A stretch of 25,104 bases of DNA, from assembly GCA_018398765.1 (NCBI GenBank), contig JAHBMJ010001307.1:7501-32604 (forward strand), given 5' to 3'. The notes below the pieces were generated by a model. That model was not told where the DNA came from and did no database searches. It saw only the letters and a program-made list of their open reading frames with translations. This document shows, piece by piece, positions 1 to 23,226 of the stretch. The translations under genes were made by a program, and so were the position numbers. The DNA is from Chromera velia. Its lineage: Eukaryota; Sar; Chromeraceae. Position 1 is the stretch's first letter; the number at the start of each line of letters is the position of its first letter.

Positions 1-559
1 GCAGCAGACGGGACAGATCTCGGGGGCTGTCCCCTCGATCAGACGGGGGATGTGTGTGAGGCAGAGATCTTTCCTGCGAAGCTGTACGGCCAAAACCCTT
101 TCATCGAGAGGTTCGACGTCGCCCTGGAGAACCTGAGGGCAGAGAAGCTGGTGCTCGATGAGGCAGACAGCATCAACTACGTACACGTGGCACGAGGGAC
201 TGCGGAGGTGCTCGGTAGGTCGGGATATTGCATGGGGTGTGCATGGGTCGGTTGACAGGGCATGCACCCATCGGGCGCATGTGTGAAAGCAGAAACGTCA
301 ATTGGGCTTTCTTTGAGTGACCATTCACAGAGTCAAACAAACACATGCGCGGGGGGAAATCCTCGAAGAAGGAGTCCACAGGGGGACAGGGGGGGGAAGC
401 ATCGACTTGCCGCCCCCTGTCTTCATACGCGCGGGCTGCAAGGTTCCCTGCAGGCAGACAGCAGCAACAACCATGAATGCATGAAACGGAGGTATTCTCT
501 GTTTATGTGTATGTGTGGGTCTGTGTGTGTGTGCGCGTGAGAGAGAGACGGGCACAGGC

Positions 560-602
<43 letters not shown>

Positions 603-1931
603 GAGACAGAGAAAGGATGAATGCGGATTCATCAACCTGTCCTTCTGTCTGTCTGTTTGTCTGTTTGTCCTCTTCCTACCAGGGAGGTCTGAGGGCGTTC
701 CCCTGGGAACAGTGCTGACGGGACGCGCCGAGAATCCGGAGGGACGTTCGTTTGTGGTGGACATGGGCTTCCTCAAGGATTCTCCGGTTGGGGACATGCA
801 GGTGAGTGTGTGGGTTGGTCTCTCTCGATTTCTTTCTTCCTTTCTTTCTTTCTTTGTTTGTTTGTTTGTTTGTTTGTTTTTGTTTGTTTGTTTGTTTGTT
901 TGTTTTTGTTTGTTTGTTTGCTTGTCTGTTTGTTTGTTGTTTCATTGCTAAGGTTGGTTGGTTGTTCCGTTGGTGCATCTTCCTTTGATGTCTTCGGTTC
1001 AGAGACGCACAGAGAGAGAGCCCACAGAGGTAGGAGAAGGAACGAACGTGCGAGGGGGTACTGGCAGGTGCAGCATCAAGGGAAGGTGCTCCCTCACATT
1101 GAGGCTTGCTTGTCTTTTTCTCGTCACACGATGCTGCAGGTTGCGTTTTCCCCCTCCCATAGTGGACGCACAGAGGGAGTACGGAATGAATGCCTGCTGC
1201 AGGGGAAGGCAACCGAATACTCAGAGTGATGTTGAACTAGCTTCCTGCTATTTGAGTCGTATCTCTGGAGAAATCCCGCGTTGCGGCTCCATGTATGGTT
1301 CACATGTACGGCGTAGATTTGTTGTAAGCCAGCAAGTAAACAGAAAGCCGACAGTAGGTCCATGTCCTCTACACAAAGCTTTCTGTTCTGCTCCATCCTC
1401 GTTGATGCGTGCAGGATGCGGCCCTGGACGTGAGAAGAGAGGCGATCATGGACAAGAGAGGGCCCCATGCCGTGAAGGCCCACATTGTCATGGACGTCGG
1501 GCTGGACGGGAGGGCAGCATCCATTGGTAGGTGCGTGCGTGCGTCAGTCAGTGACTACTCAATTGCAGGGGGGGGAGGCTCTGGGTGTGTGAAACTCGCT
1601 TCATTTCTGGACTTCGTTTTCCCTTTTTCATCTCCATGTCTGGCGGCGTTTCCTGTGGGAACAGCCAGCACGTGCTTAGACACTCACTCACCCGCGGCCG
1701 CTGACTTACTTACTCAATCACTCACTGACGTACGGAACCACACCTTTTCTTCTCTTTCTATGAATTGTTCCTTGATCCTCAGGCCAAAGAGACGCGATGC
1801 TGGCCATCCGGAGAACTCTGGATGAACAGACGGGACCGGAATTTGAGGCCGTCGCAGTGGCTCTACCCTTCCGATATTTCGAGCAGTACGCAGTCATTCT
1901 GGAGGTCGGCCAGTAGCCATATAGCATATGA

Positions 1932-1962
<31 letters not shown>

Positions 1963-1988
1963 TCGCTCGCTCTCTGTCTGTCGGTCTA

Positions 1989-2019
<31 letters not shown>

Positions 2020-3396
2020 GCAACTCGCAACCACGGAGAGACCGACAGCGACTTTTGATTTTTTTATCTCTTGTCACAAAACAGAAAAGAAATGATCAGA
2101 AAAAGAGGCGTGCAGCCACAAAGGGAAGCAGAACTGCATTTCAACACTCTTGATTTTCCCTACCGATGTTTCAGCGTACACTCTGTCAATTTTCTCGTCT
2201 TTTCCGCTTGCTCTTTGTTCGACACTTCTTTTTTGCCCCACTCCCTCCCCTTCTCTCCCTTTTTCTGGCTGAACGTATGTATCTCTCGCTCTCTCTCTGT
2301 ACCTCTCTCTGTCTATGTGTATTTATGTGTGTGTGCGGGTTGCAATGTGTGTGCACATCCGCAAGGAAACAGAGTTCTATCAATCAATCATTGTCGCTCC
2401 TTCTGTTTGCTTGCAGGAAACTCTTCGGAATCTGGCGTTTGCTCTCCTTGGAGTCATCGTTGCCTCTCTTCTCTTGACTTCCTCCTTTCCCCTGGCCGTC
2501 ACGACGTGTCTGTCCGTCCTTTCCATCGACGTTCTGATCCTGGGGATGATGAGTCTCTGGGACATCGCCCTGGACTCCATTAGCGCGGTGAACCTGGTGA
2601 TGGCCATCGGTCTGGCTGCCGACTACGTGCTGCATGTGGCCCTGGACGTCTTCCAACCTCCGATCGATCCGGCAGAACTCCGAAAGATGACGGGGGCAGA
2701 GAGGGTCGGTGGATGCGCAGGGGGGGGGCGGACGGACAATGAGACGTGCTTTTCTTCTTCATTTGCGTGTTTGTTCGTTTGTTTCTCTGTTTGTGGCGTT
2801 TACAAAGTCCAGCACAAACGATGTAAGACTGTGATTTGGAGGCGGAAAGAGAGTCCCAAGTGCTTTCCCTCACTGTAAGTGTTTTCTTGTTTTGCCTGAA
2901 TTCATTCACAAAAGATCGATCCGTTGATCAATTTGCATTTCTGTCTCGAAAGGAAGGATGGAACGAGAAAAAGAAAGTAGGAAGAGAAAGAGAGACGCCC
3001 CACAACATCAAGAAAGAGGGCGCGGGTCAGACTTTCTTTCAGATGCATTTCCCCTTTTTTGTGAGTCCGTCCTGCAGGTACGCCACGCTCTGGAGCACAC
3101 CGGAGTCTCTGTCCTCTCAGGGGGTGTCACGACCTTTCTCGGTGTCCTTCCGACAGCATGGGCAAGGTCGCACGTCTTCAACATCTTCTTCAAAATGTGC
3201 GTGCGTGCGTGCGTGCGTTCCTCGATAAGGTTCCTCTTCTCTCCATGCTGCTTCTCCTCTGCTTTCTACAAGTGTGCACAGAGTGATTGGATGTCCATGC
3301 ATGTGCAAGCTAAGTGTGTGATCGTCATTGGATTGTTGCATCCATCCATCGAAGTCTGCAGTCAGCACAACGCACTGCAAGAAGACATACACAAGC

Positions 3397-3432
<36 letters not shown>

Positions 3433-5700
3433 ACCTTTTCCATGCCTGTTTGCAGGTTCGTGGGCATCTGCGGCTTTGCGTTGCTGCACGGTCTGATGAT
3501 CACCCCGGTCATTCTTTCCTTCTTCGTCGGTGCCAAAAAGGCAAACAACCGGAAGAAGTCTGTAGATGACGACGGAGCCGCAGGAGCAATGGGCGCAGGA
3601 GACGAACAGGACAACGCTGCAGGTCTCCCTCTGGCCTCCAAAACGCGACAGCCCACATTCACTACCATGCCCTCCCACACCATCATTCTCCCTTCTGCCT
3701 CAGGCTTCGACCTTCCCCCCTCACGATCGGACGTCCCCCCTGCTCAAGCGATCGAGCAGGCGTCCCACGCCATATCCCGCTTGGCGTCCTCAGTGTCCAC
3801 TAGGGGCGGTCCCCTCTCTTCTGCGGTCCCCTTCGACGTTCCCTCCATCAACGCAATCGCTGACGTCCTCGCGGCAGTAGCGGCACAGGGGGGGACACAG
3901 GACCACCAGGACCTGTCTCTAGTTCTTCAGGCCCCCCCTTTGAATCTGGACGCAGACGGACTCCACCATTCTCTGAAACAATTGAAGAAGGCGATGACCC
4001 AGACTTGCATTGTCGGGATGTCTGCCAGATTCGCGAAGTCTGCAGACAAAGAGGGCTACTGGGAGACCCTCTGCAAAGGCGTCACGACTGTTTCCGAGTA
4101 TCCCCCCGACAGAATTGCAGAGCGATACAGATTCGACCAGCACTACTCAAAGGGAGCCAAGGAAAGACCGATGAGGGCCTACGTGAACAAAGGAGCATTC
4201 TGTTCGGAGACGGACCTATTCGACAACAACTTCTTTGCAGTCACCGACCAGGAGGCAAGGTCGATGGACCCGCAACACCGTCTCCTGCTGGAGGGGTCAT
4301 TCAACTCAATTCAGGATGCAGGAGTGCCTCTGAGAACTTTGCAGGAGCACCAGAAGTGCGGGGTGTTCATAGGGATCATGAACATCGACGCCTGGTCTGC
4401 AATCCTTAGGGACAACGTCCGGTACTTTGCCGACCAGTTCTACGTGACTGCAGGGACCAAATCAATTGGAAGTCAGTCAGTCAGCCAGTCAATCAGTCAA
4501 GATGAACGAATGCATGCACGCTCTTTTCTGCGGGTGTTTTTGTTCGTCTAATGTGCCGATCTCGCGTCTCCCCCGAGTTTCCCCCCATGCTGTCGTGAGT
4601 TTGTAGAAAGATAGATCATCTGCCTTCTCTCTAGTGTGCCGGGGTGCAGGAGGAGCTGTGAGTGGAAGGTGATTCCATGTTCGCGAGCTGTGTGCATGTT
4701 TACGCTTCTTTCATCATAAATAAATCTGCAGGCGGGCGTATCTCCTTCGCCCTCGACCTGACGGGGCCCTCGATGACGTTCGACACCGCCTGTTCGTCCT
4801 CTCTCGTTGCCGCCTCAGTTGCGTGCAACTACCTGGAGGACGGGAAAATCGATCATGCCGTTGTGGGAGGGGTCAGTCAGGGGGTGGCCTGCCTATCCAC
4901 TTTGGGGGTCATTTTGATGGTCGTCCATCTGAACTTCGGCATTTTCATGCAGACATGCAAAAAGAAAACTGCGTAGACAAAGCAGTGGTCAACTGCTCTG
5001 CCGAAGGGAGGCTGTCCTTTCACACTTCGTTTTTGTCTTGAGCACAAATCATTCTCGCAATTCTCTTCGGTGCACCCGACACACAGAGACTCATATAGGT
5101 AGACACGCTCACACGGACATACGCACGCATGCCTACACACAAATGCATACACATAAATGCATAGATGCACGTTCCCCTCCACCTGTGTTTCTCGTGTGTG
5201 TGCCCGTACATGTCCTCCCCGTGCAGGTGAACGTGCTTCTTGACTGGAAGTTCTGGTACATCGCCTCCAAGGCCGGGATGATGGCCCCGGACGGCAGGTG
5301 CAAGACCTTCGACGCCTCCGCTGACGGGTACGGCAGAGGAGAGGGGTGCGGTGTCCTGCTGGTGAAGCGCACCCGGGACGCCGTGTCTGCAGGTGACCGA
5401 ATCTATGCAGTCATCGGCGGCCACGCGACAAACAACGACGGCCGAAATGCCGTGCCAATCACGAACCCTTCGACCGAAATGCAGGAGCTTCTCTGCAGAG
5501 AGGCGCAGAGACAAGGCGGGTTCTCTGCAGACGACATTCGGTCAGTCAGTCCTTCATTTCAGTACATGCATTGGTCAATCAGCTAGTCAGACAGGCGAGC
5601 AGGCAGACAGCCAGCCAGCGAACGCGTGTCCGCAATTATGCATTTTTTTTCTCATGTTTCTGTGTATGTGTGTTTGTATGTGTGTGTTTGTGTCTGTCTG

Positions 5701-5752
<52 letters not shown>

Positions 5753-6867
5753 TGTGTATGTGTATGTGTATGTGTGTATGTGTGTGTATGTGTGGGAGTT
5801 CAGGTATATCGAGTGCCACGGCACGGGAACCCCCGTTGGCGACCTGGCAGAGGTCACGGCTCTCTCTGCAGCCTTCGGGGAGGGGCGGACGAGAGGCCCC
5901 ATTCCCATCGGGGGGGCTAAGGCGGTGTTCAACCACACAGAGTCTGCCGCAGGGGTCGCATCCATCATCAAGGTCGCGTTGATGATTGAGAGAGCGGCGC
6001 TCCCTCCGATCAAATCTGTCCAGGTGCCCAACCCGAAGCTCGCTTTTGCCAAGGACGTTTTGGTGGTCCAGGACGCTCTGGAAGAGAACCTCCAGATCCA
6101 ACCCTCGGACGCTTTCTGCATCAACAACTTCGGCTACGGAGGGTCCTCTGTTCACATGGCTCTCATGCCCCCACCCCCGACTCAGAGAGTACCGGGGCCA
6201 TTTGCAGATAAATCCCTCACTGCACAGACCCAGCCTCGCCTTCCCTTTGTTCTTTCTGCGCACTCCAAGCAGGCCCTCCTCAGTCTCTGCAGGGCATACC
6301 TTCCCTGGGTTGAGGAGGTCGTCGGGGACGAGACAACCAAAGAGCTGGAGTCTGCAGCTAAGCAAGGAAAGGCGACAAAGCAGCCCGAGGATTTGGTGCG
6401 TCGTCAACTGTTGAGTCTCTCCTCCACCCTCTGTACCCGCGCCTCTCATTTCAATTGGCGTCTCGCTATCGCAGCTGCAACCGGAGACGAGTTGATCAAG
6501 ACCCTCGAGGCCCTCTCGAAGGCCTCGAAGCTGGACGAAATCCCAAAGGGGCTGGGGGACAGCGCTGTGCTCTCCCGTGCAGCGGCCGCAGGGGCAGTGA
6601 TCAAGCCTGTGTTCGTTTTCGGCGGCCAGGGATCCCAGTGGTTCGGTATGGGTGCGAGTCTGTTTGTGAGGGAGCCTGTTGCAAGGGCAACATTCGAGGA
6701 GGTCGACAGAATTCTCCGAGAAGAGCTCCGCGTTCCCGAGTCGGTGTTCTCTCTCAAAGCGGCACTCAACCACCACCTCTCGGGGGCATCTTCTTCGCAA
6801 AAGGGAAAAGACGATTCGCCCTTCTTCACAACCAGGGGAGCGCAGGTGAGGTGACAGAGAAAGAAAA

Positions 6868-6901
<34 letters not shown>

Positions 6902-9900
6902 CCTAGAATCAAGTAGACGGACTGACGTGAAGTGTTCGGCCTTCCTCGATTCTTCGCTCCTTCGCTTCTCTCCTTCCTTTCTTTGCATTGCTCCATTCAT
7001 TCATTCATTCATTCATTTTCTAAAGCCGTATTTTTCTTTGTCTCTACTTCGTTCTTTGCTTTTACATTCTTCCTCCTGCCCTTCCTTTCTACCCCCCACC
7101 CATTCTGACCTGTAAGTCGCTGTTCACTCGATCACTCGGTCCCTCCATCTTATTTTGAAGAGGAATGTCCCGCGGGATCTGAACGATTAATTCCCGATGG
7201 GGGTCTATCCAAAGACATTTCTTGTCCTCACTCTGTGCGCTCCCTCCTTGTGCATTGTTCCTCCTGCCTGCCTGCCTGCCTGCAGGTCGGGATGTACTCC
7301 GTCCAGGTCGCCACCTTCAGGTGCCTCGCCCAGTGGGGTATCACCCCCGCCGCCGTGATCGGCCACTCTCTGGGAGAAGTGGCGGCTGCCCACTGCTGCG
7401 GGGCCCTGAGCCTTGCAGACGGCCTCAGGGTGATCTGGCACAGAGCCGACCTCCAGGCGTCCCACTGCTCCCACGGGAGGGGGGCCATGGCTGCTGCGGA
7501 CCTCTCGGAGACACAGGCGATGGAGTTGATCAAACAGATGGGACTGGAATCCAAGATGGCGATTGGGGCGGTGAATGACCTGACGAGTGTGACCCTGAGC
7601 GGGGACAAGGACGCAATGCAGCACATGGAAGCCAAACTGAAGGAGGACCAGCCGGATCTCTTCTTCAAGGGACTCCCTGTCAACTGTGCCTTCCACTCAC
7701 ACCAAATGGATGTCATTAAGGACATGTCAGTCAGTCAGTCAATCGATTAGTCAGTGAGTCAGGCAGCATGACAGTGCACATCAGACGGACCCTATTTCTC
7801 GACATATATGTACAGAAGCAAGAAAAGAACAGAAACAGCTCCGTCAGCGCTGATGCACATCTGTATTTGCCCATCCATGATTTCCAAAATTTTTTGCGCG
7901 TTTGAGACTGCTCGTTCTTTAGAAGGAGATCGCGCTCTTGTTCTGTATGCCTGTTCTGATTTCTATGTAGGTACGTAGATTCTTCGAATGCAAATGCCTG
8001 ATTGCACAAGTTCCTGAGTGAATGAATATTCTGGATCCCGCATGCAGGTATCTCCAAAACGCGAAAGGCCTCCAACCCCACCCCCCCTCTGTTCCCTTCT
8101 TCTCGACTGTGGACCCCCGACTGGACCCCATGAGTGCGATCCTCGACTGCAACTACTGGTGGTCCAACATCAGGGGCGCAGTGCTCTTCGCCGGATCCTT
8201 CTCACGAATCCTCGCAGAGGGCTACACCCACTTCGTCGAGATCGCGGCTCAGCCGACCCTCGGCCGCTACATCAGCAACATCGCTCGCGGTGTGGGTATG
8301 CAGGAGGAGAACATCAAGCAGGTGTCGTGCCTGCCTCGGCAGAGAGGAAAGGGGGGAGTGTGGCTGTCGCCCTCTGCAGATGAGAGCCACTCAGTTCGCC
8401 TTGCAGGTGTGACAACTTGGTCTTGGGGTCTCCAGTGGGACCTGCGTCAGATGCTTCTGCCGACTCCCAAGGGAACGATCTCCCAGTCTGATCTCCCAAT
8501 TGACTTCCTCGAACTCCCCCAGTGGCCCTGGCAAAGGGCGTCATTCTGGACCCACTCCAATTTGGAGGAAGCAAACAAAAAGAACGCAAAGGGAGATACG
8601 AAGGCAGCAGCAAAAGCAATCGACCAGAACAGAATCCTCAAAGAAGCCCACTGCATATCTACCGTCTCCGACATCAAGAAGGCAGCCGCTTTTCACCCCC
8701 TTCTGGGCCACCCCGCGGCCACTCCCTTCGGCAGCGGCCAGGTGGTGTTCGAGCAGTTCATCGAGCCCGCACGCACGATCGCGTGGTTGGAAGATCACAA
8801 GCTCTCTGCAGCAGGGGGGGAGCCTGTGTTCCCTGCCACTGCCTATGTCGAGTGCGCTCTTGCTGCTGCCTACCACTGCGGATTCAAGACGGCCAGTCTG
8901 GAGAGGGTCAACTTCCGTCAATTCCTGCCGATACCGAAAACCGAACTTCCACGATTGAGAGTCGCGTTGATGTTCGGCCTCCCGCAGTTGAACGCGCAGG
9001 GGGATGCCGCACAGAGGGTCGGGGCCGAGGGGGATCCTCACGCGATTGGGTTTGAGATCTGCAGCAGTCAGAACGCAGGCATGGAACTCGTCCTGCATGC
9101 ACAGGGCACACTGAGGCTGGACATGGGAGGCGCTCCTCCTTCTCGTTTGGGCTTTGGGTTCGATGCCCGGTCGCTTTTGGGAGTCGATGGAGCGACACGG
9201 CTCCCTGCTGTCCGCAGGGGGAGCAGGAAGGCGAGTGGGGGCGGTGAGACTTCCTCTGTCCCTCTTACCCGTGCGCGTTCGATTTCTTTCACTGCGGAGG
9301 ATGACGAAAACCCCAATCTGATTCAGCAACTCAGACAGGGGGGGTACCCTGAGGGTGTCTGCTCGGTTGTGAGCATCAACGAGATGGACATCATCCTCAG
9401 ACACCACACACTGAGACTCCCTGGCCTGGATTCATCGGAAGACGCTCACGTACCTCCGGCAGTCAACGCTGTCCGAGGACTGGCAGGGGTGAAGACAGTG
9501 GAGCGGAAAGAATTCTTTGGTCTCCTCGAGGCGGCAGGATTCGATTACGGTCCCGCGTTCAGACTGGTGGACAAGGCGTGGGTGGGGAAGGTAGACGACG
9601 GGAGAATGAAGGGTTCGGCTGCAGCCCTGCAGATCCGAATGCCTAGGAGGAAGAGGGAGATAGGGGAGTTCATGTCCGGGAACAGAGAGGCCAAAGCGGC
9701 AATCGACCAGCTGGAGGACCCCAGATACCTCCTCCCGCCTTCACTGATGGACGCCTGCCTTCAGGTGGGTGGGTTGGTAGGCCTCTCTCTCCTCTCGGTT
9801 TACTGAATACATCTTTGTTGTATTGCTGTTCTGCTCTTTGTTTTCGTATGTGTCCTCTCATGTAGTGCCTGTCTCTTCTCTCATTGACGAATGCCTCTCA

Positions 9901-12201
9901 TCATGTGAGCAGAAAAAGTGGTTTCTGGACGTGCAAGAAAGTATAAAGTAGACGTTTCTTTGTTGGCGACTTGACCCCCCGCTCCTCTCCTTTCCGCCCC
10001 TCTCCATTCATGGATTGATTGTGCCTGCCTCTCTGCCTGCCTGCAGGGAGTTGTGTTGGTGATGACGAACGACGAAAGCGGAGATGGCGAAGGAAAGGTT
10101 CCTTACGCTGTGCGGAAGGTATCGGTGTTCCGCAGAGTCCGCACTGTCGACGCCTGGTGCGTGATTGAACCCTCCAACCCGCTCTCGAAAGGAGCCGACC
10201 TAGACGACACAGAGTTTGACATTCGCCTGTTCGACGGAGAGGGGAACATTGTGGCGATGTGGGAGGGATTCGCTCTCGCTGCTGCAGGAGCAGAAGCAGC
10301 AAGAGCCGGAGACGAAACCGAAATTCTCCCGTCCCCTCAGTCCGTCTCGTCGCTCTGCTACAGAATCTCCTACAAACCCCAGCCTTTCGACACAGCAGCC
10401 CATCTGCCCGTGTTCGGGGCCCCCCGCATTCTTGTGGTGCGCGCTCTGGATACTCCCGAGTCGAAAAAGATCCAGGCTTCCATTGCAGAGGCCTACAACG
10501 CCGATCCCGAAATGAGGAGAAGAGACGTCAGGGTCGAACAGGCTTCTCTGTTCCCCAACGGACATCAGCCCCTCGCTGCGGTGACAGCTCAGTCGGACCT
10601 TCTGGCAGCCTGGGAAGAGCTCTTGAACAGCCGGGACTTCCTCCCTTCCTACGCGGTGGGTCAGAAAACGGTGCGCACTATTGTCTTCACCGGGCCTTTC
10701 GAAGTCCGTGCCGCGCTGGGGTCGGGTCTGAGCGAGGAGAACGCTGAAGTGGCCTTCAGAGTGTGCTACGACGGCGCCGTGTCTCTCCTGAAGGCATCCG
10801 TGCGTAAGCAGAAAGAGACGGAGAGTGAGTTGAAGGAGATGAAGAAGAAAGAGACGCAGGCCGAGAAGGAAGGGCAAAAGGTCACAAAGACAGACTGGGA
10901 GATGGAGGAGCGTCAGAGATTCAACGCGCTCCACGTGGTCCTTCTCACCAACGCCTGTCAGGCCGTCAGCCTCATCCCTGCAGGAGAGAAGAAGGAGCAG
11001 CCTGAACAACAGCAGAAGGCCTTTGAGCACAACGACACCGATCCATGGGGAGCGATGACCTGGGGGGTCCACAGGGTCTTCCTGCAGGAACACGCGATGG
11101 ACCTCAAGGTACAAACAAACAAACGCACGCATCCATGCATGCATACATATCTGCAGGCACATGCATACGTGTATACTTGCAAAAAGATGTACACAAATAG
11201 AAGGATTCAAAAGCGCCTCCTGCTTTTTTCGCGTTTGTATTGTATGTGCATGTCCAGTTGTGTGGGAGCGTCCGTGTGTGTATGTGCCTGTCTATCTGTC
11301 TGTCGATGATGTGTGCAGACCTCCATGGTGGACCTCCACACGAATCCCGCCGTGCCCCTCCAGGCCCAATACGGTCCCGTCGTTGCGCAGTCTCTGTTTG
11401 ACGGCTCAGAGAGTCAGCAGCTCTTCCTTCCAGATGGAAAGAGACTCGTGCCCAGACTGATGAGGCACCTCACAAGCGAGAAGGAAGACGGACCTCCAGA
11501 CTTTGAGAAGATCCCTCCCCAGATCCTCAGTGCGATCTCCTCAGGAGGAAGCAGGGCGCAAGAACAGGAGGGCGTCAACTTCACTCTCTCAGTACCCAGA
11601 GCCGCCCCCCGTTCAGGAGCAGGGGCCCTGTCCCTCCTCCCATCTGACCGCGCGGCCTATCTGCTACCCTCACAGGTGGAGGTCCGAGTCATCGCAGTCG
11701 GACTTCCGAGACGCCTGGTGGGACTGTCCCTTCTGCCACCTCTTCAGCATGTCAAGGGACCAGGGGCCCCGGCAACCCCCTCTGCCACAGGATTCGTTGG
11801 CTTCATCAGCCGTCTTGGAGACGCCAGTGTGTCCGGATTTGCTGAGGGCCAGCCGGTGATGGGGGTGAGTCTCCGAACGAAAGTTGGGAGGTACTGGGTG
11901 GTGGACAAGTCCGAAGTTCTTGCCCTTGACCTTCTGGGGGGGCTGAACCTGGGGGCCCTCCAACCGACCGAGAAGGCAGATCAGAGGGCTGTGGCAGTGG
12001 CGGCGGGGTGGGCTCTTCCTTTGGGCGTGGCGTCTCACGTGGGTGTGAAGTTCCTCTCCCCACTGCTGGACCATCAGAGACCTGATCTGACGGTAATCGT
12101 CATGGGACAATGTCAGTCAGTCAGTGAGTGAGTACACAGACAGGGGCGGAGGAAAGGTCTCGTGATTTCATCATGTCCGTGCAGCACTGAATCTCTTTTT
12201 C

Positions 12202-12238
<37 letters not shown>

Positions 12239-12642
12239 TCCCGCCCTTTCCTTGGGTAGCCATTGTCCACTGCATACGTATCTGTATGCGTGGATAGACA
12301 TGTCTACACCCACGTAGTCCGATGCACACTTGCATCCATACATACATGCACTCACACATGGATACATACACACTCTCGTACATATGTTCACGTTGTTTTT
12401 GTTTTTTTGTTGTCTGTCACGCAGTGGGAGACACTGAAGCTGCTCTGTGTGCCGTCTGTAAGGCTATGGGTTTCCGGGTGATCCTCGTGAGGGCCCGGGT
12501 GAAGGGGGCACAGCAGTTCTCCTCCAACCCGTCTCTTGAGGCGGCGTCCTCTTCGTTCACAGACTGCATCGTGGAGGATGAAGATGTAAGCCTGGTGGCT
12601 GCGTGCGTGCGTGCACTGATTCACTGATTCATTGATTCATTT

Positions 12643-12681
<39 letters not shown>

Positions 12682-15600
12682 CGGGATGCCCTTCTCAAAA
12701 ATTTGATCGATACTCACACAAACATAAACAGACAGACAGCACGGTAATGGATCTCGACTTGCAAGAGTGGGCATTTTTGTGTGTCCTTGTGTATTGTAGG
12801 GCGTTGCCTGCTTCATCTTGTTCTTTTAGACGTGCGAAGTAGGAAAGGTTGGCGTGTGCTTGCAGAGGAAGCGCACACACACTTTTGGGGGGTTCAGAAG
12901 GGGAAAAATGGAAGGGAGGACGAACGTCTCGATCCTGCCTGCTGACCTTAATTGCCGCCCTTCCCTTGTTGCTTGCTGACTACATGCAGACGCTCCGTTT
13001 GGAGGCGGAGGTGATGGCAACAACGAGAGGCCTTGGAGCCTCTGCTCTTGTGGTGGCGTCCGATGTCAAGCTGCCTCGTCCTGTCCTCACAAAGGCGCAG
13101 AGCCTCGTCACCCCTGACGGCGTGACAGTAGAGGTTGTGGGGACTGCGATCGGATACTCAGTGGATGAGATCACAAGACACGCGGGTCTCGGCATCACTC
13201 CCTCCCGCCTTGGATCCCGTTTTGCCGCTGGGTCTGTGCTCTCTCTGCTCTCCCCTCACCATGCGGGTGCAGCCTTCTTCAGACTTGACGTCCCTCTTGA
13301 AACCGCCAAACAGTCCGGGATCTGGATCGGGTCCATTCGCGAGGCTGCGAAGAGAGGCCTCATGTCGAAGATCACCACAGTTGCTTCCCAAATGTTCCAG
13401 GCAGACTGCTACAGGCCCACAGACGTGTCCAAGGAAATCCTCCAGACTCTGGTGGAGAGCCCCGAGAGCGGACCGGTGACGTTGGCACTGCAGAGTCCTG
13501 CACCGACAACCAGCCGCATTCCCCCCAAGGCCCCGGCCGTGGCTCTTCAAGGTGTGGCGGGCCCCGAGGGGTTCTCTCCCGTCCTGGACCCATCCCTCCG
13601 TTGCCTCCGAGAGGACAGAACGTACATCGTCGTGGGGGGAGCGAGAGGTTTCGGTCTCTACGTCGCCAAATGGCTCGCGTGCCGGGGTGCTCGGTATGTG
13701 ATGGTCTCAACAAGATCTCAGTTGGTGCCTGCAGAGCTTGCAGAGCTGGCACGAATGGAGCAGTCTGCCCCCGGTGTGACACGCTTCGTCTTCCAGGCAG
13801 CAGACGCCTCAGACAAGAAGAGCATGCAGAGAATGATGGCCAGGTGCTGCAGACTCAAGAAAGAGTACCTGGCAGGGGGAGACAAAGTCCCCGAACCAGA
13901 CATGCCCCCAGTTGCAGGAGTGATCATGAGCGCGATGGTCCTGCAGGATCAGGACTTTTTGGAATTGGAGATGGCAAAAGCTCGGAAGGTCTTGGCTCCC
14001 AAGCTCCAAGCGACTCTTCTCCTGAAGGAAATTCTGGAGAACTCCGAGTCTGCCGCTTTGGACTTTTGCGTTTTCTTCTCAAGTGTCACCGCAGTTCTGG
14101 GCAACCAGAGGCAGGCTGCGTACGGAGCGGCAAACTCCTGGATGGACACGCTGGCACACTCCGCCAACAAATTGTTCCTGCAATACTACGGCCTCGACAC
14201 TGCCGCAGGAGGGGCAGGTCAGGTGGTCAGAGAACGTCCAGTGCTCGGAAGACTCTTGTCGTTCAACTGGGGTCCGATCTCGGGTGCCGGGGTGCTGACG
14301 CGCAACAGCAAGAACGTGGCGTATCTGAAATCAATCGGGTTCGGTCTGGTGCCCGCAATTGAGTGCGTCCACTCTATGGAGGCCCTCCTTCCCTGCTCCG
14401 CTGTGGCACAAACAATGGTTGGTCAGTTGGTCTGTCTGTCCGTCTGTCGGATGGATTGTTTCCTCTTCGCTTCTCTTTCCCATCGTGTGTCTCCCTTTAC
14501 CTTCATGTTTTTTCTTTTTTACTTTCTTTTTTTTTCTTCCTTCCATCCTTCCTTTCCTCGTGTGTTGATTTCTTCTTTTTTCGTTGTCGTTCTATTTTTC
14601 TCTGTTTCTCTGGGCTTACTTGTTTTATTCTGATTTCGGAAGAGTATCGGTTCGGCAGGCGATGTGTGAACCTCCATCTCGATTCCGTTTCAGTACAGAA
14701 TTCCCTCATTTCTTCGCATAATGCACGCATGAGCAAGCACGCAGGTGGGTCACTTCGATTGGGAGCGAGTGCAGAAGAGTTTCCCCCAGATGAAGGGACT
14801 CATCGCAGAACTTTTGGCAGAAATTCAGAAGGACGACCCGGAGGCAAAGGCGGGAGGAGGGGGGAGCAACATGACTCCCAAGCAGCGACTGGATGCCGCC
14901 AAGACAACTGCGGATCGATTGGCCGTTGTGTGTGAGTATCTGGGCGTTCTCCTGAACCTTGAGGGCAAAGAGCTCGACGTGCAGCGGTCCCTCGGGGAGC
15001 TGGGAGTGGATTCTCTCACCAAGGCGATGCTCCCTGCACGCATTGAGAGGGATCTGGGGGCTGAGGTCTCTCCCTCTCTCTTCACTCGTACAGATGCCAC
15101 CATCGTACTCTGCGCAGAGGCCATCCTCAGGTCAGTCAGTCAACCAGGCAGGCAGTTAGGCGAACGTACAAGGAAAGGAAGACAAAAGAAGGCGAAAAAA
15201 AAAAGAATCAATACCCGTGCAGACCTCGAATGGAAAAGACTCTCTTGTTTCTTTCTCACTCACCGTGTTTCCGTGACTGTGCGTCTGTCTTCTCTATCTC
15301 CGCTTCGGGATTCTCTTTCTCTCTCTTTGACCTACCTCAAATTCTCTCTAGACGTTCCTGTCAAACAGACGGAGAAGAGGACCGGATCGTCCACCTCTCT
15401 ATCGGACATGCTTCATCGATCAGGAAGTGCACTGCATGTGTGTCCACGAATATCATCTGCACGTAAGCATAGACATGGATGCATGAACGTAAACAGGAAC
15501 AAATCTCTCTATCTATACGCACGTCGACCTGCATGTCTGCATGACTGTCTGCAGGAACCTGGAGTCTCAGGGGTCCAAGGGAGGGGCAGGGGGACGCCAG

Positions 15601-18600
15601 TTGCCGGATGGGATCTTCCTCATGAGGGAAGCTCCGTGCGAACGGGCCGCACTTTTCTGCTTGTCCCCAGCCCATCGCCCCGTGTTCGCCCTCGAAAACC
15701 TTGCGGCGGCCTTCGCCAAGCAGGACTCGATTTCGTTCTTCGGTGTGGGCACGGGCAATCCGTTCGAGGTCTGTCTCCGCCTCTCTCTCTCGCTCACACA
15801 CACTCTTTCTCACGCACACTCGCTCTCAATCCTGTGCTCTGGTTTCATTCGTTAATTTTTTCGTGTGCTTCGATTCCTGATTCCCTGTCTGTCTGTCTGT
15901 CCGTCTGTCTGTCTGTCTGTCTGTCTGCCTCCCTGTTTGGCTTGCCTGTCTGTCTGTGTGCCAACCTGCGAGAGAAATTCATAAGAAGACAGACTGTGCG
16001 TTGGCAGTGGTGTTTCTGTATTTCTCTGTTTCCTCTCGATGTCGAATACGCAAGGGGTCAGGGGTGTGCGTCCATGTATGTGTATGCATAGTCGTCGCTC
16101 ACTAATTCAACAAATCTCTCTGGTCCGTTTGTGTGAACAAGTGTTGCCTTGGACGGTGCACCTTCACACAGGGCCACGAAGCCATGAGATTCATGTTCAC
16201 AAGCATTTGTGCAATTTGTGTGTCTCTTCTCTCTCTCGATTGTCCTTCCTGCAGGTCGTGGTGCCTTGGGGGTCCGTGGAAGCCCTCGCGGAGGAGTACG
16301 CAGCGAAGATCCACGCAGTGCAGAGCTCTGGGCCTCTGTTCTTGGCTGGATACTCTTACGGAGGCACAGTCGCGTTCCACGTCGCGTGCGTTTTGGAGAA
16401 GACGTACAAGAGAGGGAACGACGTGAAGATGCTCGCCCAGATGGATACCTTCCCCAACGTTGGCATCGCCTATGAGCACGCTCGTGAACTCTGCAGGTGG
16501 GGGGGTGGGGTTGTCTCTTTGTCTGCCGGTCTGTCTATCTGTCTGTCTATCTGTCTTGTCTGTATGGATGGATGGATGGTTCGATGGATGGATGTATGTA
16601 TGTGTATATGTGCGTCCTAGCTTCACGTCTGCACATGGGCCAAGAATCATTTCTTTCCTGTTGTTCTGCGTTGTTTCGAGACTGCAGGCAATTGATGATG
16701 CCTCTGGCAGACCGACAGGTGAACATGCTCTCATACCAGATGGTCAGGGGACTGGCGGTCGACAAACTCAGGATGGACGTGACAGAATACGACCAGACAC
16801 TCGAGAAGCACCCGGTGAGTCACTCAGATACATCGATAGTCAGGCAGACAGGCAGGCAGGTTGCAGCGTGGACGTTCAGACTGAGCGTTGAGGAGGGAAT
16901 CGCTGCCAAGCACAAGAAACCATTTGTTTGTTTGCACACTTTCTTTTTCGTGTTTTTGGAGCGGTTTACTTGTTTGCCTGCCTTCTGTACTGCCTTGATT
17001 CGCTCGCCTTCGCTTCGTGAATTCTTGTCCTCCCGTGTTCGAATGGTTTTCTTCCATCTGCAGAATGGCGAGCTTGCCCTCAAACGTCTGCGGGGTGCGC
17101 TCGCGTCGGAGGCGGTGCGGCAGGGTCGGACGGCCCTCCTCCCAGACGTGGAGGGATTCCTGCGGTCCGTCCGGTCAGACACCATGTGCGCGTTCAAGAC
17201 CCACCTCGACTACAGACCGGGGGGGCACAGGCTGAAGTGCCCTGTGACGTACATCAAGGTGAGTGAGGTATTGAATTGTGTGCACTTTTTTTCTTTCATG
17301 ATCTCTGAGCGCATGCTGTGGAGGAGTCGAATCAGACGCACGGAGAATAATCGGGGGGTCTCTTTTTTTGAATGAGACGGAAAGAGCGAGAGGCAGGAAG
17401 GAAGGAAGGAGGAATCCGTTTTTGATGTTTTGGTCTTTTTGCGGTGCCCATTTTCCGACACCACCGTGTCTCCTTTTTGAATTTGTTTTTTCTGCAAAAT
17501 CTGTCTTCTCCGCATGTGCATGGATTGTGTTGTTCCTTCCGGCGTCATGCTGCCTATCCATCCATTCACCTATGTGCCGCCACTTCACTGTTGAACTGAA
17601 CGATGATTCTCTCTTGCTTTGCTTCCTCCCTGCTGTTGCAGGCTGCAGACCCGTCCTACTCGTTCTCCCTCGCCCTGCTTGACTCCCCCCAGTGGACTTG
17701 GGGTTCACTCTCCGGCAATAAAATGCCTCTCGACCTCTACTTCACACCCGGACACCACTACAACATCCTCGACGCGGAGAGGGCCAAGTACTGTGGGGAG
17801 ATTCTCCTCTCGGGGATTGCTCTCAGAATGCCCCTCCCTGCACCCAGAAGCGCATCCAGTCTCCTGCCTCGTTCCGCCACCTTCGTGGCACTCACAGAGA
17901 AGGCAAAGGAGACGGCTCCCGATTTCGACTTCGATCTCTGGATCCAGAGAATGGCCACAGCAGCGCAGACGGCGACAGGGGAAGAAGAGGTCAGGAGCGA
18001 GAACACAGCGGGCGGGCAGGCAGCAGACCCGTCACTAGGCACAAGTGGCGTTTCCGAATCAGACAAGGGCACGGAGAAGCTCACGGGACTGTTCCCGTCT
18101 CCCGAGTTGAGGAAGCCGCTGGCAGTGTCGATCTTCCGACGAGGATTGGCGGTTGCGCTCGTCTCCTCCAAGCCTGGCCTCAAGCGGCCCCGCACAGGCA
18201 TTCTCCGCGTCGTTCCGACGGGGGCACTGAAGAAAGCGTCGGGAGCGCAGACGAAGTTTGAGTGGGGTGTGTGCGGTTTCTTCTTTGTAGAGGAAAGGGA
18301 AGCGCAGGCAAAGGAGGCAGTTGAGAAGGGAACAGCACCCTCAAAGAGCTCGGGCGGGACGAGGGGGAAGCCAAAGTGGATTCCTCGAAACGCGTGTCAG
18401 ACGATCATCAGTGGTGAGATTGCCGTCGGTTCTCTTCCCTCGAGTACGCTGTCCACTCAGGTGAAGGGCCTCGGGGGAGAGGACAGGGTTTGCACTCTGG
18501 TGCTCGCACGGAGGGAGTATCACTTTGCGCCCCTGCAGAGGGACATACGAGGAGTCGACCTTGCCAGTGCCCTCAACGCTCTGGTGCAGTGCACTTCCGA

Positions 18601-18631
18601 CCAACTCTGGCATGTGCAGCAGTCGGGCTGA
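1..18631 (+). CDS. RND/Patched-like transporter fused to a reducing type I PKS/FAS (5'-partial, 22 exons)
   Basis: Exons, joined by me: 1-214, 683-801, 1415-1526, 1783-1904, 2417-2704, 3078-3196, 3456-4471, 4732-4871, 5227-5540, 5804-6845, 7286-7725, 8048-9764, 10047-11108, 11319-12111, 12425-12585, 12990-14417, 14745-15130, 15555-15768, 16255-16496, 16688-16814, 17064-17258, 17642-18631 (TGA). All introns are GT-AG and every phase matches; total 11,241 nt, 3,746 residues. Order: C-terminal half of an RND permease (about 1-350), linker (351-503), KS (504-935), AT (1083-1470), DH (1525-1957), KR structural half (1975-2235), ER (2236-2708), KR (2763-3030), ACP (3060-3150), TE (3175-3475), extension (3476-3746). 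Residue numbers count from the window edge. The start codon is upstream of the window. Expected role: membrane-anchored iterative synthesis of a reduced acyl or polyketide chain released by the TE. Least certain boundaries are the donors at 1905 and 2705 (GTCGG), chosen because they restore phase and family similarity. Fusion and domain order are seen in the sequence; product and transport role are inferred. Confidence 0.87.
538..672. repeat. Intron 1 microsatellites (GA)n, (GACA)n, (CTGT/TTGT)n
   Basis: The 468-base intron 215-682 has no protein-like ORF. Its right half is a compound repeat of GA, then GACA, then CTGT/TTGT units reaching close to the acceptor, which ends CTACCAG. The CTGT part may double as the polypyrimidine tract. 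Confidence 0.9.
829..945. repeat. Intron 2 (TTTC)n/(TTTG)n tract
   Basis: A TTTC run passes into a long TTTG run with occasional slippage (TTTTTG). It lies in the 613-base intron 802-1414, the longest in the gene. The rest of that intron holds no exon needed for phase: exons 683-801 and 1415-1526 join directly. Confidence 0.9.
1928..2022. repeat. Intron 4 compound (TC)n-(GC)n-(CTGT)n
   Basis: Within intron 1905-2416. A TC run, a short alternating GC block (potential Z-DNA former), GCTC units, then at least six CTGT units. The remainder of the intron is pyrimidine-rich up to the TTGCAG acceptor. Confidence 0.9.
3399..3429. repeat. Intron 6 (GT)n microsatellite
   Basis: About 15 GT dinucleotides, starting roughly 200 bases into intron 3197-3455, just ahead of the pyrimidine tract and TTTGCAG acceptor of the exon that carries the transporter-synthase junction. 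Confidence 0.95.
3535..3992 (+). other. Cytosolic linker between transporter and synthase
   Basis: This part of exon 7 encodes about 150 residues (351-503) joining TM12 to the ketosynthase. It begins with a basic juxtamembrane patch (KKANNRKK), passes through acidic, Gly/Ala-rich and Pro/Ser-rich low-complexity sequence, and ends in two short amphipathic-looking helices just before the KS start (MTQTCIVGM). There is no in-frame stop anywhere in the exon, and no ACP-type GxDS motif in the linker. It is probably a flexible tether. An unseen small intron inside it cannot be excluded but would not undo the fusion, because both domains share one reading frame. Confidence 0.8.
3993..6168 (+). other. 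Beta-ketoacyl synthase (KS) domain
   Basis: Spread over exons 7-10. The decarboxylating Claisen condensation of malonyl-ACP with the growing acyl chain is expected here. The active-site Cys684 lies in DTACSSSLVA (TGT at 4791); His820 lies in ECHGTGTPVGD (CAC at 5817) and His859 in VFNHTESAAG (CAC at 5934). The spacings of 136 and 39 residues match the KS family. Other landmarks are PQHRLLLEG, DLTGPS, FDASADGYGRGEGCG and the closing GGSSVHMAL. The usual NIGH motif before the second His reads VFNH, while the upstream Lys (GGAK) is kept. The KS-AT linker follows at about residues 936-1082 and includes a charged, Lys/Glu-rich insertion near residue 1010. Confidence 0.95.
5657..5795. repeat. Intron 9 (TA)10 and (TG)n compound microsatellite
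   Basis: Ten TA units at 5701-5720 followed by fifteen TG units and then TATG-interrupted TG sequence almost up to the acceptor at 5802-5803. Little conventional polypyrimidine tract remains: the acceptor is preceded by a GT-rich stretch ending GGGAGTTCAG. Confidence 0.95.
6608..8560 (+). other. Acyltransferase (AT) domain, malonyl-type signature
   Basis: Exons 10-12. The domain opens with VFVFGGQGSQWFGMG (Gly1088 region, codon at 6621). The nucleophile Ser1190 sits in GHSLGEVAAAH (codon at 7367), and the catalytic His1299 in CAFHSHQMD (codon at 7694), 109 residues downstream, close to normal AT spacing. The HAFH-like CAFH context, as opposed to YASH, is the classical sign of malonyl-CoA over methylmalonyl-CoA selection. 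The domain ends in the typical post-AT linker LPQWPWQRASFW at about residue 1468, which leads into DH. Substrate prediction rests on this motif only. Confidence 0.93.
6866..7018. repeat. Intron 10 (AG)n and (CATT)n repeats
   Basis: Intron 6846-7285 carries an AG run at about 6875-6901 and ATTC/CATT units at about 6992-7018; the rest is pyrimidine-rich and ends in repeated CTGC units running into the acceptor (CCTGCCTGCCTGCCTGCAG). Confidence 0.9.
8694..10278 (+). other. Dehydratase (DH) domain with a long internal insertion
   Basis: Exons 12-13. The double-hotdog dehydratase converts beta-hydroxyacyl-ACP to the enoyl product. It starts at HPLLGHP (about residue 1525). Catalytic His1559 is in WLEDHKL (CAC at 8796), followed by PATAYVE; the second catalytic residue, Asp1877, is in SLMDACLQ (GAC at 9750), and GFDYGPAF provides the YGP motif. 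His and Asp are 318 residues apart, about twice the usual distance. The excess lies between about positions 9130 and 9480 and is a Ser/Arg/Gly-rich low-complexity segment followed by sequence I do not recognise. An unspliced intron there is possible but no in-phase GT-AG pair was needed to keep the frame. Confidence 0.9.
10330..11108 (+). other. KR structural (non-catalytic) half with a charged insertion
   Basis: Exon 13 encodes the truncated Rossmann subdomain that precedes ER in reducing PKS and animal FAS. It begins at about LCYRISYKPQPF and closes with the pattern DPWGAMTWGVHRVF, equivalent to the G.....G..R.. helix that stabilises the catalytic KR half. There is no intact GxGxxG cofactor loop, as expected. 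An insertion rich in Lys and Glu (about 10800-10915, encoding ESELKEMKKKETQAEKEG and flanks) probably forms a solvent-exposed coiled helix. No methyltransferase motif was seen, so this is not a CMeT domain. Confidence 0.75.
12204..12235. repeat. Intron 14 (TC)n microsatellite
   Basis: About 15 TC units in intron 12112-12424, followed by a CA/TG-rich stretch with repeated ATAC/ATAC-like words and a T-rich tract before the CACGCAG acceptor. Confidence 0.9.
12600..12679. repeat. Intron 15 (GCGT)n, (GATTCATT)n and (GA)n
   Basis: In intron 12586-12989. The donor is followed within 20 bases by GCGT units, then GATTCACT/GATTCATT copies, then about 17 GA units (12646-12679). Confidence 0.9.
13605..14417 (+). 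other. Ketoreductase (KR) catalytic domain
   Basis: Exon 16. An SDR-type NADPH-dependent reductase acting on the beta-keto intermediate. The cofactor loop is VVGGARGFGLYVAKWLA (first Gly of the motif near residue 2769, codon at 13635), followed by the ARYVMVSTRS strand. Catalytic residues are Lys2891 (APKLQA, 14001), Ser2918 (FFSSVTAV) and Tyr2931 in AAYGAANSWMD (TAC at 14121). The Ser-Tyr spacing of 13 is canonical. The LDD motif used to predict hydroxyl stereochemistry is not present as such, so I make no stereochemical call. Confidence 0.93.
14745..15130 (+). other. Acyl carrier protein (ACP) domain
   Basis: Exon 17. The 4'-phosphopantetheine attachment Ser3119 is in ELGVDSLTKAML (TCT at 15012), preceded by DVQRSLG and followed by IERDLGAEVSPSLF, the usual helix II pattern. 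The exon also carries the end of KR (VGHFDWERV) and a short Gly-rich spacer. There is one ACP copy only, unlike the tandem ACPs of PUFA synthases. The ACP would need a phosphopantetheinyl transferase encoded elsewhere. Confidence 0.94.
15885..15955. repeat. Intron 18 (CTGT)n tract
   Basis: More than ten CTGT/CTGC units with one CCGT interruption in intron 15769-16254. The intron also opens with CT-rich and CACA-rich simple sequence; no gene-like ORF inside. Confidence 0.9.
16507..16600. repeat. Intron 19 (GTCT)n and (GGAT)n repeats
   Basis: Intron 16497-16687 opens GTGGGGGGGTGGGG, then GTCT/ATCT units and GGAT/TGTATGTATG units. Confidence 0.85.
17836..18631 (+). other. C-terminal extension after TE, PH-like pattern possible
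   Basis: The last exon runs about 265 residues past the TE. The first third is low complexity (Ser/Thr/Glu/Gln). The remainder has alternating hydrophobic strands (AVSIFRRGLAVALVSS, TGILRVVP, FEWGVCGFFFVEE, TIISGEIAVGSL), a Lys/Gly-rich loop, and ends REYHFAPLQ followed by an amphipathic helix DLASALNALVQ. The strand-rich body with a final helix and a V-L-x-R-x-Y-x-F-A stretch resembles the end of pleckstrin-homology folds, but no invariant residue settles it. If correct it would bind phosphoinositides or protein partners at the membrane. Otherwise it is an unknown domain. The TGA stop is at 18629-18631. Confidence 0.4.
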
Positions 18632-20480
18632 GCTCTCTCTCTCTCTCTAGCTGTATGTCTGACGTATTCGTGGGTGGTGAAATCGTGGAAACGAAGCTTG
18701 CTTGCTTGTTTGTTTGAGGGAAGACGGTCAACGGAGCTTGGGTCTACTGACTGACGGACTAGCCGTCAGCAGATGCTGAACCAAAGTCCGGGAAGACAAT
18801 GAAATGAATAATTGAACGAAAACGGAATGCAAAGAGAAAGAAGAAAAAACAGGGCCGGCCGGGGCCTTGTTCCTCCCTGCATTCAAGATGAAGGAAGGAA
18901 GAACGAGAGACAGACAGTCGGGAAATCAAGCAGAGGATTTCTTATCGCACTTTCTGGGGGGAGGGGAGGGGGGGAGAGATTCAAAAAGAATAAATTACAG
19001 AAGCAAGGCACGCACTGCCTGACTCTATTGACAGAATTTGAAGAGAATGGGGGGGGGGCGGTTCGATCCGGGCCTTTCTTTCTTTCTTTGAGCATTGATC
19101 GATTCATCCGTCTGAAGTTTGGAGGAGACGATCGAAGAATGGAACTTTATTTATTGTCTGTAATTAAGGGCGGGGGGGTACAAAAGAATTAAGGGCAGGA
19201 GGGAAATTCAGGTGTATGAACAAGGGATCGACTCAGTAAAAGAAAAAATCTCCTTCAGATTTGATCCATCCATCCATCCATCCATCCATTCAGAAAAGGT
19301 GGGAGGAATTAAAGATCGAAAAAGAAAGATTGCCAGGGGCCGGCCGAGGGGGGAAAGAAATGCATGCAGGAAGGGAAGGAGGGTTGCATGTGGGGAGGGA
19401 CGGCCAGATCGATACTCCAAGCAGCTGCGGGAGTCTACTTCCATTTCTTTTCTCTCTTGCGTCCATTCATTCATTCATTCATTCATTGTCAGTCATTCGG
19501 TGCTGAAGGAAGAATGGAGGTGAGAAGAAACACTTGATTGATCATCGTTCCAGCTTATTGATCGAGCCAGTTACTCGATCACTCTTCCTGTCTTTACTTG
19601 TAGTCGTTTTATTCTTCTCTTCCCTCCCCTATTCGATCGTCTGTCCTCTCCTCTTCTCTCCTTCTCTCCTCTCCTCGTCTCTATTCGCAGTTTTTTTGTC
19701 TGTTTGTTTGTCTGTCTCTGCTTCCTTTGTCTTCTCACCTGTCCTTTCGCTCTCCCTCTTGAATCTTGTCTTCATGCTCAGAAGAACAGAGCCTGTCCGC
19801 CTCCCGCACCCTTCATTCATCAACTGCCATGGACTGAAATGAGAAAGAAACAAACAAACAAAGAAAGAAAGAAGAAAACTTCACTCCTTGTTCTTCTGGA
19901 ATAGACCAACATACACCTAACAGACATGGGTGGATTGCTGTATGGGATTGTCTCTTTGTTTGTCGCGTTCTCTCCTGATCTGCTGTCTTGCTGGTCTCTG
20001 GATGAAGAAGTGACTGCTGCATCACAAATTCAATCAATCACTGTGTCGAAAACATAATTCTGCAACAACGATCCTAGCACGAATGCACGAAAAATGCACA
20101 CTCTTGCACATGTGTGCGTGCGCACCTCCGTGTCTGTCTGCGTGTATGTATGAAGCAAGTGTATTCAATGTCGACAGAGGAAAAAGAAAGAAACAAACAA
20201 ACAAAAACATGCAGAAGAGAAAAGAAGTAGCTAGAGAGGGAGACCCAAGACACATCGACTGTGTTTCTGTCGTTCTCTGTCATCTGACTTTCGTTAATTT
20301 GTTCCGCTTGCTGGACTGATCGACTGCAAATGACCGAGTGCCAGTGAGTGTGCATTGGTGTGCAGTTTTCAAGCATTGTTTGAATTTGAATGATACCTCT
20401 GGTCTTTTTGGAGACTTGTTCTTATTCGCAAACACGATTAGTCGTCGATCTCTGCACGTATGCACCATGCATGGATGTGC
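18632..20480. other. 3' flank of the fusion gene, no credible gene
   Basis: The stop is followed by CTCTCTCTCTCTCTAG and GC-neutral sequence. An AATAAA occurs at 18989-18994, but its use as a poly(A) signal in this lineage is uncertain. The stretch contains simple repeats (ATCC at about 19263-19290, ATTC at about 19460-19488, TTTG/GTCT near 19700), two GGCCGGCC-containing words near 18852 and 19338, and only short compositionally driven ORFs. I see no RNA gene. Confidence 0.7.
19263..19290. repeat. (ATCC)n microsatellite in the 3' flank
   Basis: Six consecutive ATCC units; a matching ATTC run of about six units occurs 190 bases further on at about 19462-19487. Confidence 0.9.
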
Positions 20481-20599
20481 TAGTCAAAACATCTGTAATT
20501 ATAAGGTATGATCCCTTTACTAGGGGCCTTTAGATCGCTGGCCCGTTCACATACATTTACCCTTAGATTTAGATCTAGTACCCCTAGCTAATACTCTGT

Positions 20600-20619
20600 A
20601 CTTAAGTCTAGACTTAAGT
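20600..20619. repeat. Perfect 20-bp palindrome
   Basis: ACTTAAGTCTAGACTTAAGT is its own reverse complement over all 20 bases. It lies just inside the AT-rich block near several CTAG/TTAAG words. No element ends or target duplications are obvious around it. Confidence 0.95.
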
Positions 20620-21021
20620 TCTCAACTAGGTTTTAAACCCTGGTTTTTAAACGTCTTAAAAAATGTTTATGTCTGCATGCACCGAATTATCTAGAATCTA
20701 TTCATCTTATGAAATATATATTATGTGTTTCAATAGAGATGAACAATCAAAAGTCCAGGTCCACGCTTTCCTGGACTAGCTTTTACACACACACAATCCA
20801 CATTACGCGACTTATTTCATATGTATTATGTATAAGAAAGTCTGTCAATTGCTAAAGTATTGCTACTGCTATCAGCAAGACCCTTCTTCAATGAATAGAA
20901 CTCTTTACTTGACTCAACTGATTTGCATACATAGACCAACATGCATGTAGCATGCATTCATGCATTCACTTTCACACGACTTGTGCGCTCATGAGATTGA
21001 TAGAAAAGAATATGCACGGCG

Positions 21022-22839: not shown

Positions 22840-23226
<387 letters not shown>

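Follow-up and report, generated by a model that had tools for sequence, protein, structure and literature searches.

A 25,104-nucleotide stretch of the Chromera velia genome (contig C1305:7501-32604, plus strand; hereafter the window) carries a gene, W, in which a Patched/NPC1-type RND permease and a type I polyketide synthase (PKS)/fatty acid synthase (FAS) module appear as one continuous polypeptide. The same junction was found in a complete paralogue, C, on contig C3434, and in P0002, a protein known from a transcript that is attributed to the gregarine Selenidium pygospionis. These genes represent a conserved one-gene fusion, which we propose works as a lipid synthase handing its product to its own transporter, a reading of its function to which we give about an even chance.

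The joint lies within a single exon of W, in which transmembrane helix (TM) 12 of the permease (LLHGLMITPVILSFF, from 3481) and the start of the ketosynthase (KS) domain (CIVGMSARF, from 4006) stand in one uninterrupted frame, with splice phases (2 in, 1 out) that fit the neighbouring exons. In the spliced model, all 21 introns have GT-AG boundaries and are in phase, the frame is open from position 1, and the stop codon lies at 18629-18631. A preliminary description of the window had claimed the single frame across this exon and the agreement of its phases, and the model bears it out; it had also placed the donor at 4471, as paralogue C and the KS motif SIGSGRIS do, and a GA-AG intron at 4468 in our first model was dropped on this evidence. 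Past the span of 1 to 6168 given there for the fusion, W continues to 18631. Within the window, the permease of W comprises lumenal loop 2 and TM8-12 only, its 5' part falling in 5,000 upstream bases that read N.

Paralogue C is a complete gene from Met to stop, running on the minus strand of contig C3434 from 24019 to 3088 in 24 exons, with the same junction exon at C3434:18217-17139 (minus). Without a 36-base micro-exon (C3434:22000-21965), its model is identical letter for letter to UniRef A0A0G4HSE2 (P0001, from C. velia CCMP2878); we regard this micro-exon as spurious, as it is missing in P0001 and in the stand-alone transporter P0123 described below, and residue numbers of C after about 418 run 12 above those of P0001. 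Eighteen of the 21 introns of W are common to C in place and phase, and the other three are absent from C. Over 3706 codons the two genes are 76.7% identical and their differences are mainly synonymous, with a non-synonymous rate (dN) of 0.16, a synonymous rate (dS) of 1.49 and a dN/dS of about 0.11; dN and dS by part were 0.12 and 1.11 in the RND half, 0.40 and 1.18 in the linker, and 0.075 and 1.29 in the KS, giving about 0.34 for the linker (112 codons), all of these ratios being rough because a dS above 1 is near saturation. The linkers of W and C retain the blocks LPSASG.DLPP and QASHAISR.ASSVSTRGG. Across the genome we counted at least 21 Patched and at least 53 KS matches, with both kinds on three contigs. 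C3434 is the one contig where they are near each other and on one strand (they lie 36 kb apart on contig C608 and on opposite strands on contig C1549); the fusion as a chance product of gene density was rejected. Contig C1305 gave no Patched match in this genome search; the sterol-sensing domain (SSD) of W would fall within the N stretch.

Giant proteins were searched with the C-terminal RND half as query. With 1507 candidates scored at a threshold of E 0.001, two passed, namely the paralogue itself and P0002, a protein of 3951 residues from transcriptome record GHVN01066595.1; the GHVN records are assigned to Selenidium pygospionis, an archigregarine, in a table of PMC10304595. The sequence of P0002 begins near TM7 and takes in TM12, a linker, KS, acyltransferase (AT), dehydratase (DH), ketoreductase (KR) and thioesterase (TE), with an acyl carrier protein (ACP) motif present. 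Its identity to C is 52% over TM7-12, 62% in the KS, 46% in the AT, 38% in the DH, 41% in the KR, 42% around the ACP and 44% in the TE, and is low in the linker (21.4%), in two stretches between DH and KR (24-25%) and at the C-terminus (23%), a pattern which shows that P0002 is not Chromera contamination and makes an accidental chimera at the same joint unlikely. A giant-protein search with the KS was uninformative for near relatives: all 1500 candidates matched, summed scores favoured multi-KS proteins, most of the named ones bacterial, and none of the 120 listed carried an SSD or Patched domain. The preliminary description had suggested looking for the junction in related organisms, and both C and P0002 have it. 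It had further held that the fusion would fall if the contig were misassembled or if relatives always kept the two parts as separate genes; neither is the case, and the occurrence of the same junction in a paralogue and in another species establishes that the fusion is not a misassembly. The linker, whose conservation it had also raised, is conserved between W and C (55.8% identity), but hardly towards Selenidium.

The permease part is a Patched/NPC1-class RND protein with an SSD, as had been proposed at the outset, an assignment made through paralogue C. Residues 1-1038 of C matched the Pfam families PF12349 (sterol-sensing, E 9.9e-35) and PF02460 (Patched, E 6.7e-32); a sub-threshold match to PF03176, at 18.8 bits against a cut-off of 20.5, leaves C outside the MmpL family. 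The SSD/Patched match was seen over TM2-6 of C, and the corresponding part of W reads N. C also matched solved chains of NPC1L1, NPC1, NPC1-related and Patched proteins in two stretches each (best E 3.6e-41). Its likeness to these proteins thus lies in the SSD and Patched domains and in the two matched stretches, and it differs from them in having the PKS at its C-terminus and no Pfam match to the NPC1 N-terminal domain (PF16414, NPC1_N) in residues 1-1038; nor did the NPC1 middle lumenal domain (PF22314) find a Pfam match in C. Homology of C to the NPC1 and Patched chains predicts 12 TM helices, TM1 and TM7 each being followed by a large lumenal loop, and the hydropathy of C and P0123 agrees with 12 helices, individual ones not all being resolved. 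In RND proteins, acidic residues in TM4 and TM10 relay protons. The TM4 motif reads GIGVDDMF in C and P0123, from which the evidence for this helix comes, TM4 of W and P0002 being outside the sequence seen; the TM10 motif is GLAADY in W (its Asp at 2621-2623), C and P0123, and GLSADY in P0002.

The C. velia genome also encodes P0123 (A0A0G4I6E2), a stand-alone RND protein of 1170 residues whose gene lies at C3721:52973-59640 and which is 78% identical to C in the C-terminal half and 69% in the N-terminal half. It matches the NPC1 middle lumenal domain PF22314 above the Pfam cut-off (E 3.3e-8). The last exon of its gene begins where the junction exon does and reaches a stop after 44 codons, past TM12, and the PKS parts of W and C gave no tblastn hit at E 0.01 in C3721:45001-70855. 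P0123 is also present whole on a contig of 3855 bases. This contig, too short for the 6.7-kb gene, is presumably cDNA and points to a permease that functions by itself. In its presumptive second lumenal loop, P0123 has a Ser/Thr/Gln-rich insertion and a WTGPPPPGWRG-like stretch.

The synthase half of W reads, by Pfam, KS, AT, DH, KR, ACP and TE in one module (the scan was run on an earlier model one residue shorter, so that beyond about residue 664 it numbers each position one too low). KS, AT and ACP lie in one chain above the Pfam cut-offs with their catalytic residues present, as in a type I PKS/FAS module, and KR (PF08659) and DH (PF21089, PF14765) likewise, as expected of an enzyme that processes the beta-carbon; the PKS/FAS module proposed in the preliminary description was thereby confirmed. 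The motifs for KS Cys/His/His, AT Ser, DH His/Asp, KR Ser/Tyr, ACP Ser and TE Ser/His are kept in W, C and P0002, and the AFHS motif in the AT of W is one that we take to be malonyl-type. At the position of an enoyl reductase, the stretch in W and P0002 matched no Pfam family up to E 10, and that of C matched no PDB chain at E<=1 by sequence. The module therefore appears to fall short of the complete reducing cycle of a type I FAS, although it may hold a divergent enoyl reductase fold; with none recognised, a partly unsaturated product would be expected if the enzyme is active. The last 103 residues of W had no convincing Pfam match. In the 177.8-Mb C. velia assembly searched, the TE module occurs at two loci only, both of them fusions; the published genome size is 193.7 Mb (PMC4501334).

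The fusion in C. velia has been in print since 2020. The passages of the Biomolecules paper considered here (PMC7464705) list two C. velia type I FAS/PKS genes as 'ACR-B coupled', Cvel_8275.t1 (4523 amino acids) and Cvel_22311.t1 (4384 amino acids), which supersedes the statement in the preliminary description that it knew of no described protein with both parts. As P0001 has 4523 residues, it corresponds to Cvel_8275.t1, and W, with the TE module at two loci only, to Cvel_22311.t1 by elimination; the published pair is almost certainly the C and W genes. In those passages the fused N-terminus is termed AcrB-like or sterol-sensing and an association with the endoplasmic reticulum (ER) is inferred, and the words 'patched', 'RND' and 'transporter' are absent from the main text. 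Neither a relative in Selenidium nor a stand-alone paralogue occurs in the same passages, and they do not work out the transporter class, the spread of the fusion or a mechanism of transport. In a searched literature with few subscription journals and no bioRxiv preprints, we found no second paper naming Cvel_8275 or Cvel_22311 and none on a Selenidium PKS or a Patched-PKS fusion, and PMC7464705 was the sole paper found on an SSD fused to a PKS. The Selenidium fusion protein, the stand-alone paralogue ending in the homologous exon and the P0132 fusion described below were likewise not found in print.

Features of W in the window (positions counted from the first base of the window)
Feature	Position	Strand	Details
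W, whole gene inside window	1-18631	+	22 exons, 3746 residues + stop
Exons 1-11	1-214, 683-801, 1415-1526, 1783-1904, 2417-2704, 3078-3196, 3456-4471, 4732-4871, 5227-5540, 5804-6845, 7286-7725	+	
Exons 12-22	8048-9764, 10047-11108, 11319-12111, 12425-12585, 12990-14417, 14745-15130, 15555-15768, 16255-16496, 16688-16814, 17064-17258, 17642-18631	+	
RND permease, C-terminal half	1-3525	+	lumenal loop 2 and TM8-TM12, ends in exon 7; identity 77% to P0123 (350 residues), 83% to C (339 residues)
Junction exon (exon 7)	3456-4471	+	RND TM12, linker, KS start in a single frame
Linker	3526-3996	+	157 residues, rich in A, S, L, D, P, G
Ketosynthase (KS)	3994-6164	+	PF00109 2.3e-66, PF02801 1.1e-30; Cys 4791-4793, His 5817-5819, His 5934-5936
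Acyltransferase (AT)	6606-8333	+	PF00698 1.5e-51; Ser 7367-7369; AFHS motif, its His 7694-7696
Dehydratase (DH)	8691-10298	+	PF21089 1.1e-12, PF14765 1.3e-15; His 8796-8798, Asp 9750-9752
Enoyl-reductase position	11601-13610	+	no recognisable enoyl reductase
Ketoreductase (KR)	13617-14168	+	PF08659 1.9e-34; Ser 14082-14084, Tyr 14121-14123
Acyl carrier protein (ACP)	14922-15095	+	PF00550 6e-06; phosphopantetheine Ser 15012-15014
Thioesterase (TE)	15649-17755	+	PF00975 1.7e-11; Ser 16354-16356, likely His 17753-17755
C-terminal extension	17756-18628	+	no known domain; C and Selenidium 23% identical

The mechanism that we prefer, and that fits this evidence, is a synthase placed under its own exporter. 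Both ends of the permease would lie in the cytosol, as in other RND proteins, so that the PKS would hang beneath it. The AT would load malonyl units, and KR and DH would reduce and dehydrate the growing chain, which, with no enoyl reductase acting, would stay partly unsaturated. The TE would then free the acyl product beside the membrane, and the cation-driven permease would move it from the inner leaflet or the cytosol towards the lumen of the ER or of a later compartment. Several points weigh against this mechanism. TM1-7 of W lie outside the window, and searches with the RND half, which covered two ranges of length, turned up no C. velia transcript across the junction. The existence of stand-alone P0123 shows the PKS to be dispensable for the permease, and the linker changes fast between genera (21% identity between P0002 and C, against 52% in the RND part and 62% in the KS), which makes cleavage possible. 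Patched/NPC1 proteins are best known for sterols, and the TE would release a soluble acid, not necessarily a substrate of the permease. On the other side, the direct link, its conservation over two genera, the motifs kept in both halves and a mycobacterial precedent speak for coupling. In mycobacteria, the RND permease MmpL7 is bound to the PKS PpsE, a biochemical coupling of synthase and RND transporter according to the parts of PMC1238737 considered, and one chain in Chromera might do what these two do as partners. The likeness lies in an RND permease that serves lipid export jointly with a type I PKS, the link shown in W being the physical one in its sequence; the difference is that MmpL7 and PpsE are two separate proteins, with a permease of the MmpL family, for which C fails the cut-off. 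If the coupling is real, the fusion would take to an extreme the partnership of synthase and transporter that mycobacteria show, and it would offer a direct test of whether a Patched/NPC1-class protein carries a polyketide or acyl chain instead of a sterol. It would also mean a lipid-making activity fixed to the membrane in an apicomplexan-related alga and a gregarine, amid many FAS-I/PKS genes.

The chief rival to an exporting permease is that the RND part is a sterol- or lipid-sensing anchor, whose SSD would bind a membrane lipid and control the activity or turnover of the PKS with no transport taking place, in the way that the SSD of HMG-CoA reductase acts on its own enzyme; we consider this somewhat unlikely, while giving it real weight. 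HMG-CoA reductase and other SSD-enzyme fusions likewise place a sterol-sensing membrane part ahead of a lipid-making enzyme, and differ in that the present fusion has a whole RND protein with two lumenal loops, and a PKS in place of the reductase. The strength of the SSD match in C (E 9.9e-35) also suits an anchor, as does the ER association inferred in the passages of PMC7464705. It is made less likely by the whole RND fold, which in C keeps both lumenal loops and the TM4 and TM10 acids rather than an SSD alone, and by the retention of P0123 as a stand-alone paralogue.

It is improbable, in our view, that the permease works inwards, in which case the PKS would elongate an acyl or sterol-like starter brought in from outside or out of the lumen. 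NPC1 does pass sterol into the membrane from its lumenal side, the FAS-I of Cryptosporidium is said to elongate scavenged fatty acids, and the organism given for one fused relative is a parasitic gregarine. Passages of PMC7464705 propose that the FAS-I of chromerids and coccidia elongates rather than synthesises de novo, but they also credit Chromera with a plastid FAS-II for de novo fatty acids, and Pfam matched no loading domain ahead of the KS. Less probable again is that one chain is made and its halves act apart after proteolytic cleavage in the linker, the fusion serving to keep their dose equal: the linker is Ala/Ser/Pro/Gly-rich and is the part diverging fastest towards Selenidium, but its non-synonymous change is still the slower (dN/dS about 0.34) and the two sequence blocks named above are kept. 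An artefact that brought two genes together, through misassembly or through mis-splicing of the model, is hardly credible, for although the 5' part of W reads N and C. velia cDNA over the junction was not seen, the junction recurs on a second contig and in the transcript-derived protein of another species, and two C. velia genes have been published as fused (PMC7464705).

A second search with the RND half, over lengths of about 540 to 1710, passed 20 of 7995 scored candidates. Among these, P0132, a 1548-residue frame on a 2,004,761-base ENA contig, consists of an SSD/Patched RND protein with a KS behind it and then the first part of an AT; the Pfam sets listed for the 19 others show no KS domain. 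P0132 is like W in carrying these parts in one frame, and unlike it in that its RND part is nearest to the stand-alone proteins P0135 and P0136; its KS nonetheless groups with those of W, C and P0002. It ends inside the AT, and its last letters, judged from the protein alone, could be a read-through splice donor or intron. The RND tree had 15 rows, with 12 of the 20 passing hits (eight were dropped by eye for similar length and score), and W and P0002 cover less than half of the alignment columns. W, C, P0123 and P0002 fell on one side of a branch (support 100/100), and the RND part of P0132 grouped with P0135 and P0136 (100/99), not with the Chromera RND proteins. One clade of all four fusions was rejected on the RND data (approximately unbiased test, p 1.6e-36), and a group of W, C and P0002 without P0123 was weakly rejected (p 0.045). 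The forks that put P0123 beside W and C have lower support (85/95 and 88/93, not starred), so that P0123 may have lost a PKS.

The KS tree placed W, C, P0002 and P0132, the last a long branch, on one side of a branch (100/99), a grouping which speaks for one origin. Its 58 other rows were 18 Chromera KS domains and one KS each from 40 of the 120 proteins listed in the giant-protein search with the KS; for the Chromera rows the best 30 of at least 53 matches were tried, 12 of which fell to the filter on E and length. No row was picked as animal, fungal or amoeban, and either one or two origins may lie behind this grouping. The P0132 fusion is probably of separate origin. We suggest, tentatively and with more doubt than confidence, that a Patched-class pump and a PKS were fused at least twice in eukaryotes, before the split of Chromera and gregarines and in the lineage of P0132, giving self-exporting lipid synthases.

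Six of the 21 introns of W start with GTCAGTCA (donors at 4472, 4872, 5541, 7726, 12112 and 15131), some continuing as TCAG repeats, and many W introns contain long simple repeats. Beyond the stop of W, in 18632-25104 of the window, no gene is evident, the longest listed stop-to-stop frame having 233 amino acids (22453-21752, minus), and G+C lies at 40-50%, down from about 56%. Upstream of the N stretch, L003:1949-396 (minus) holds two frames of 236 and 278 amino acids, perhaps a targeted membrane protein; by eye, the first begins with a signal-peptide-like leader and both contain hydrophobic stretches.

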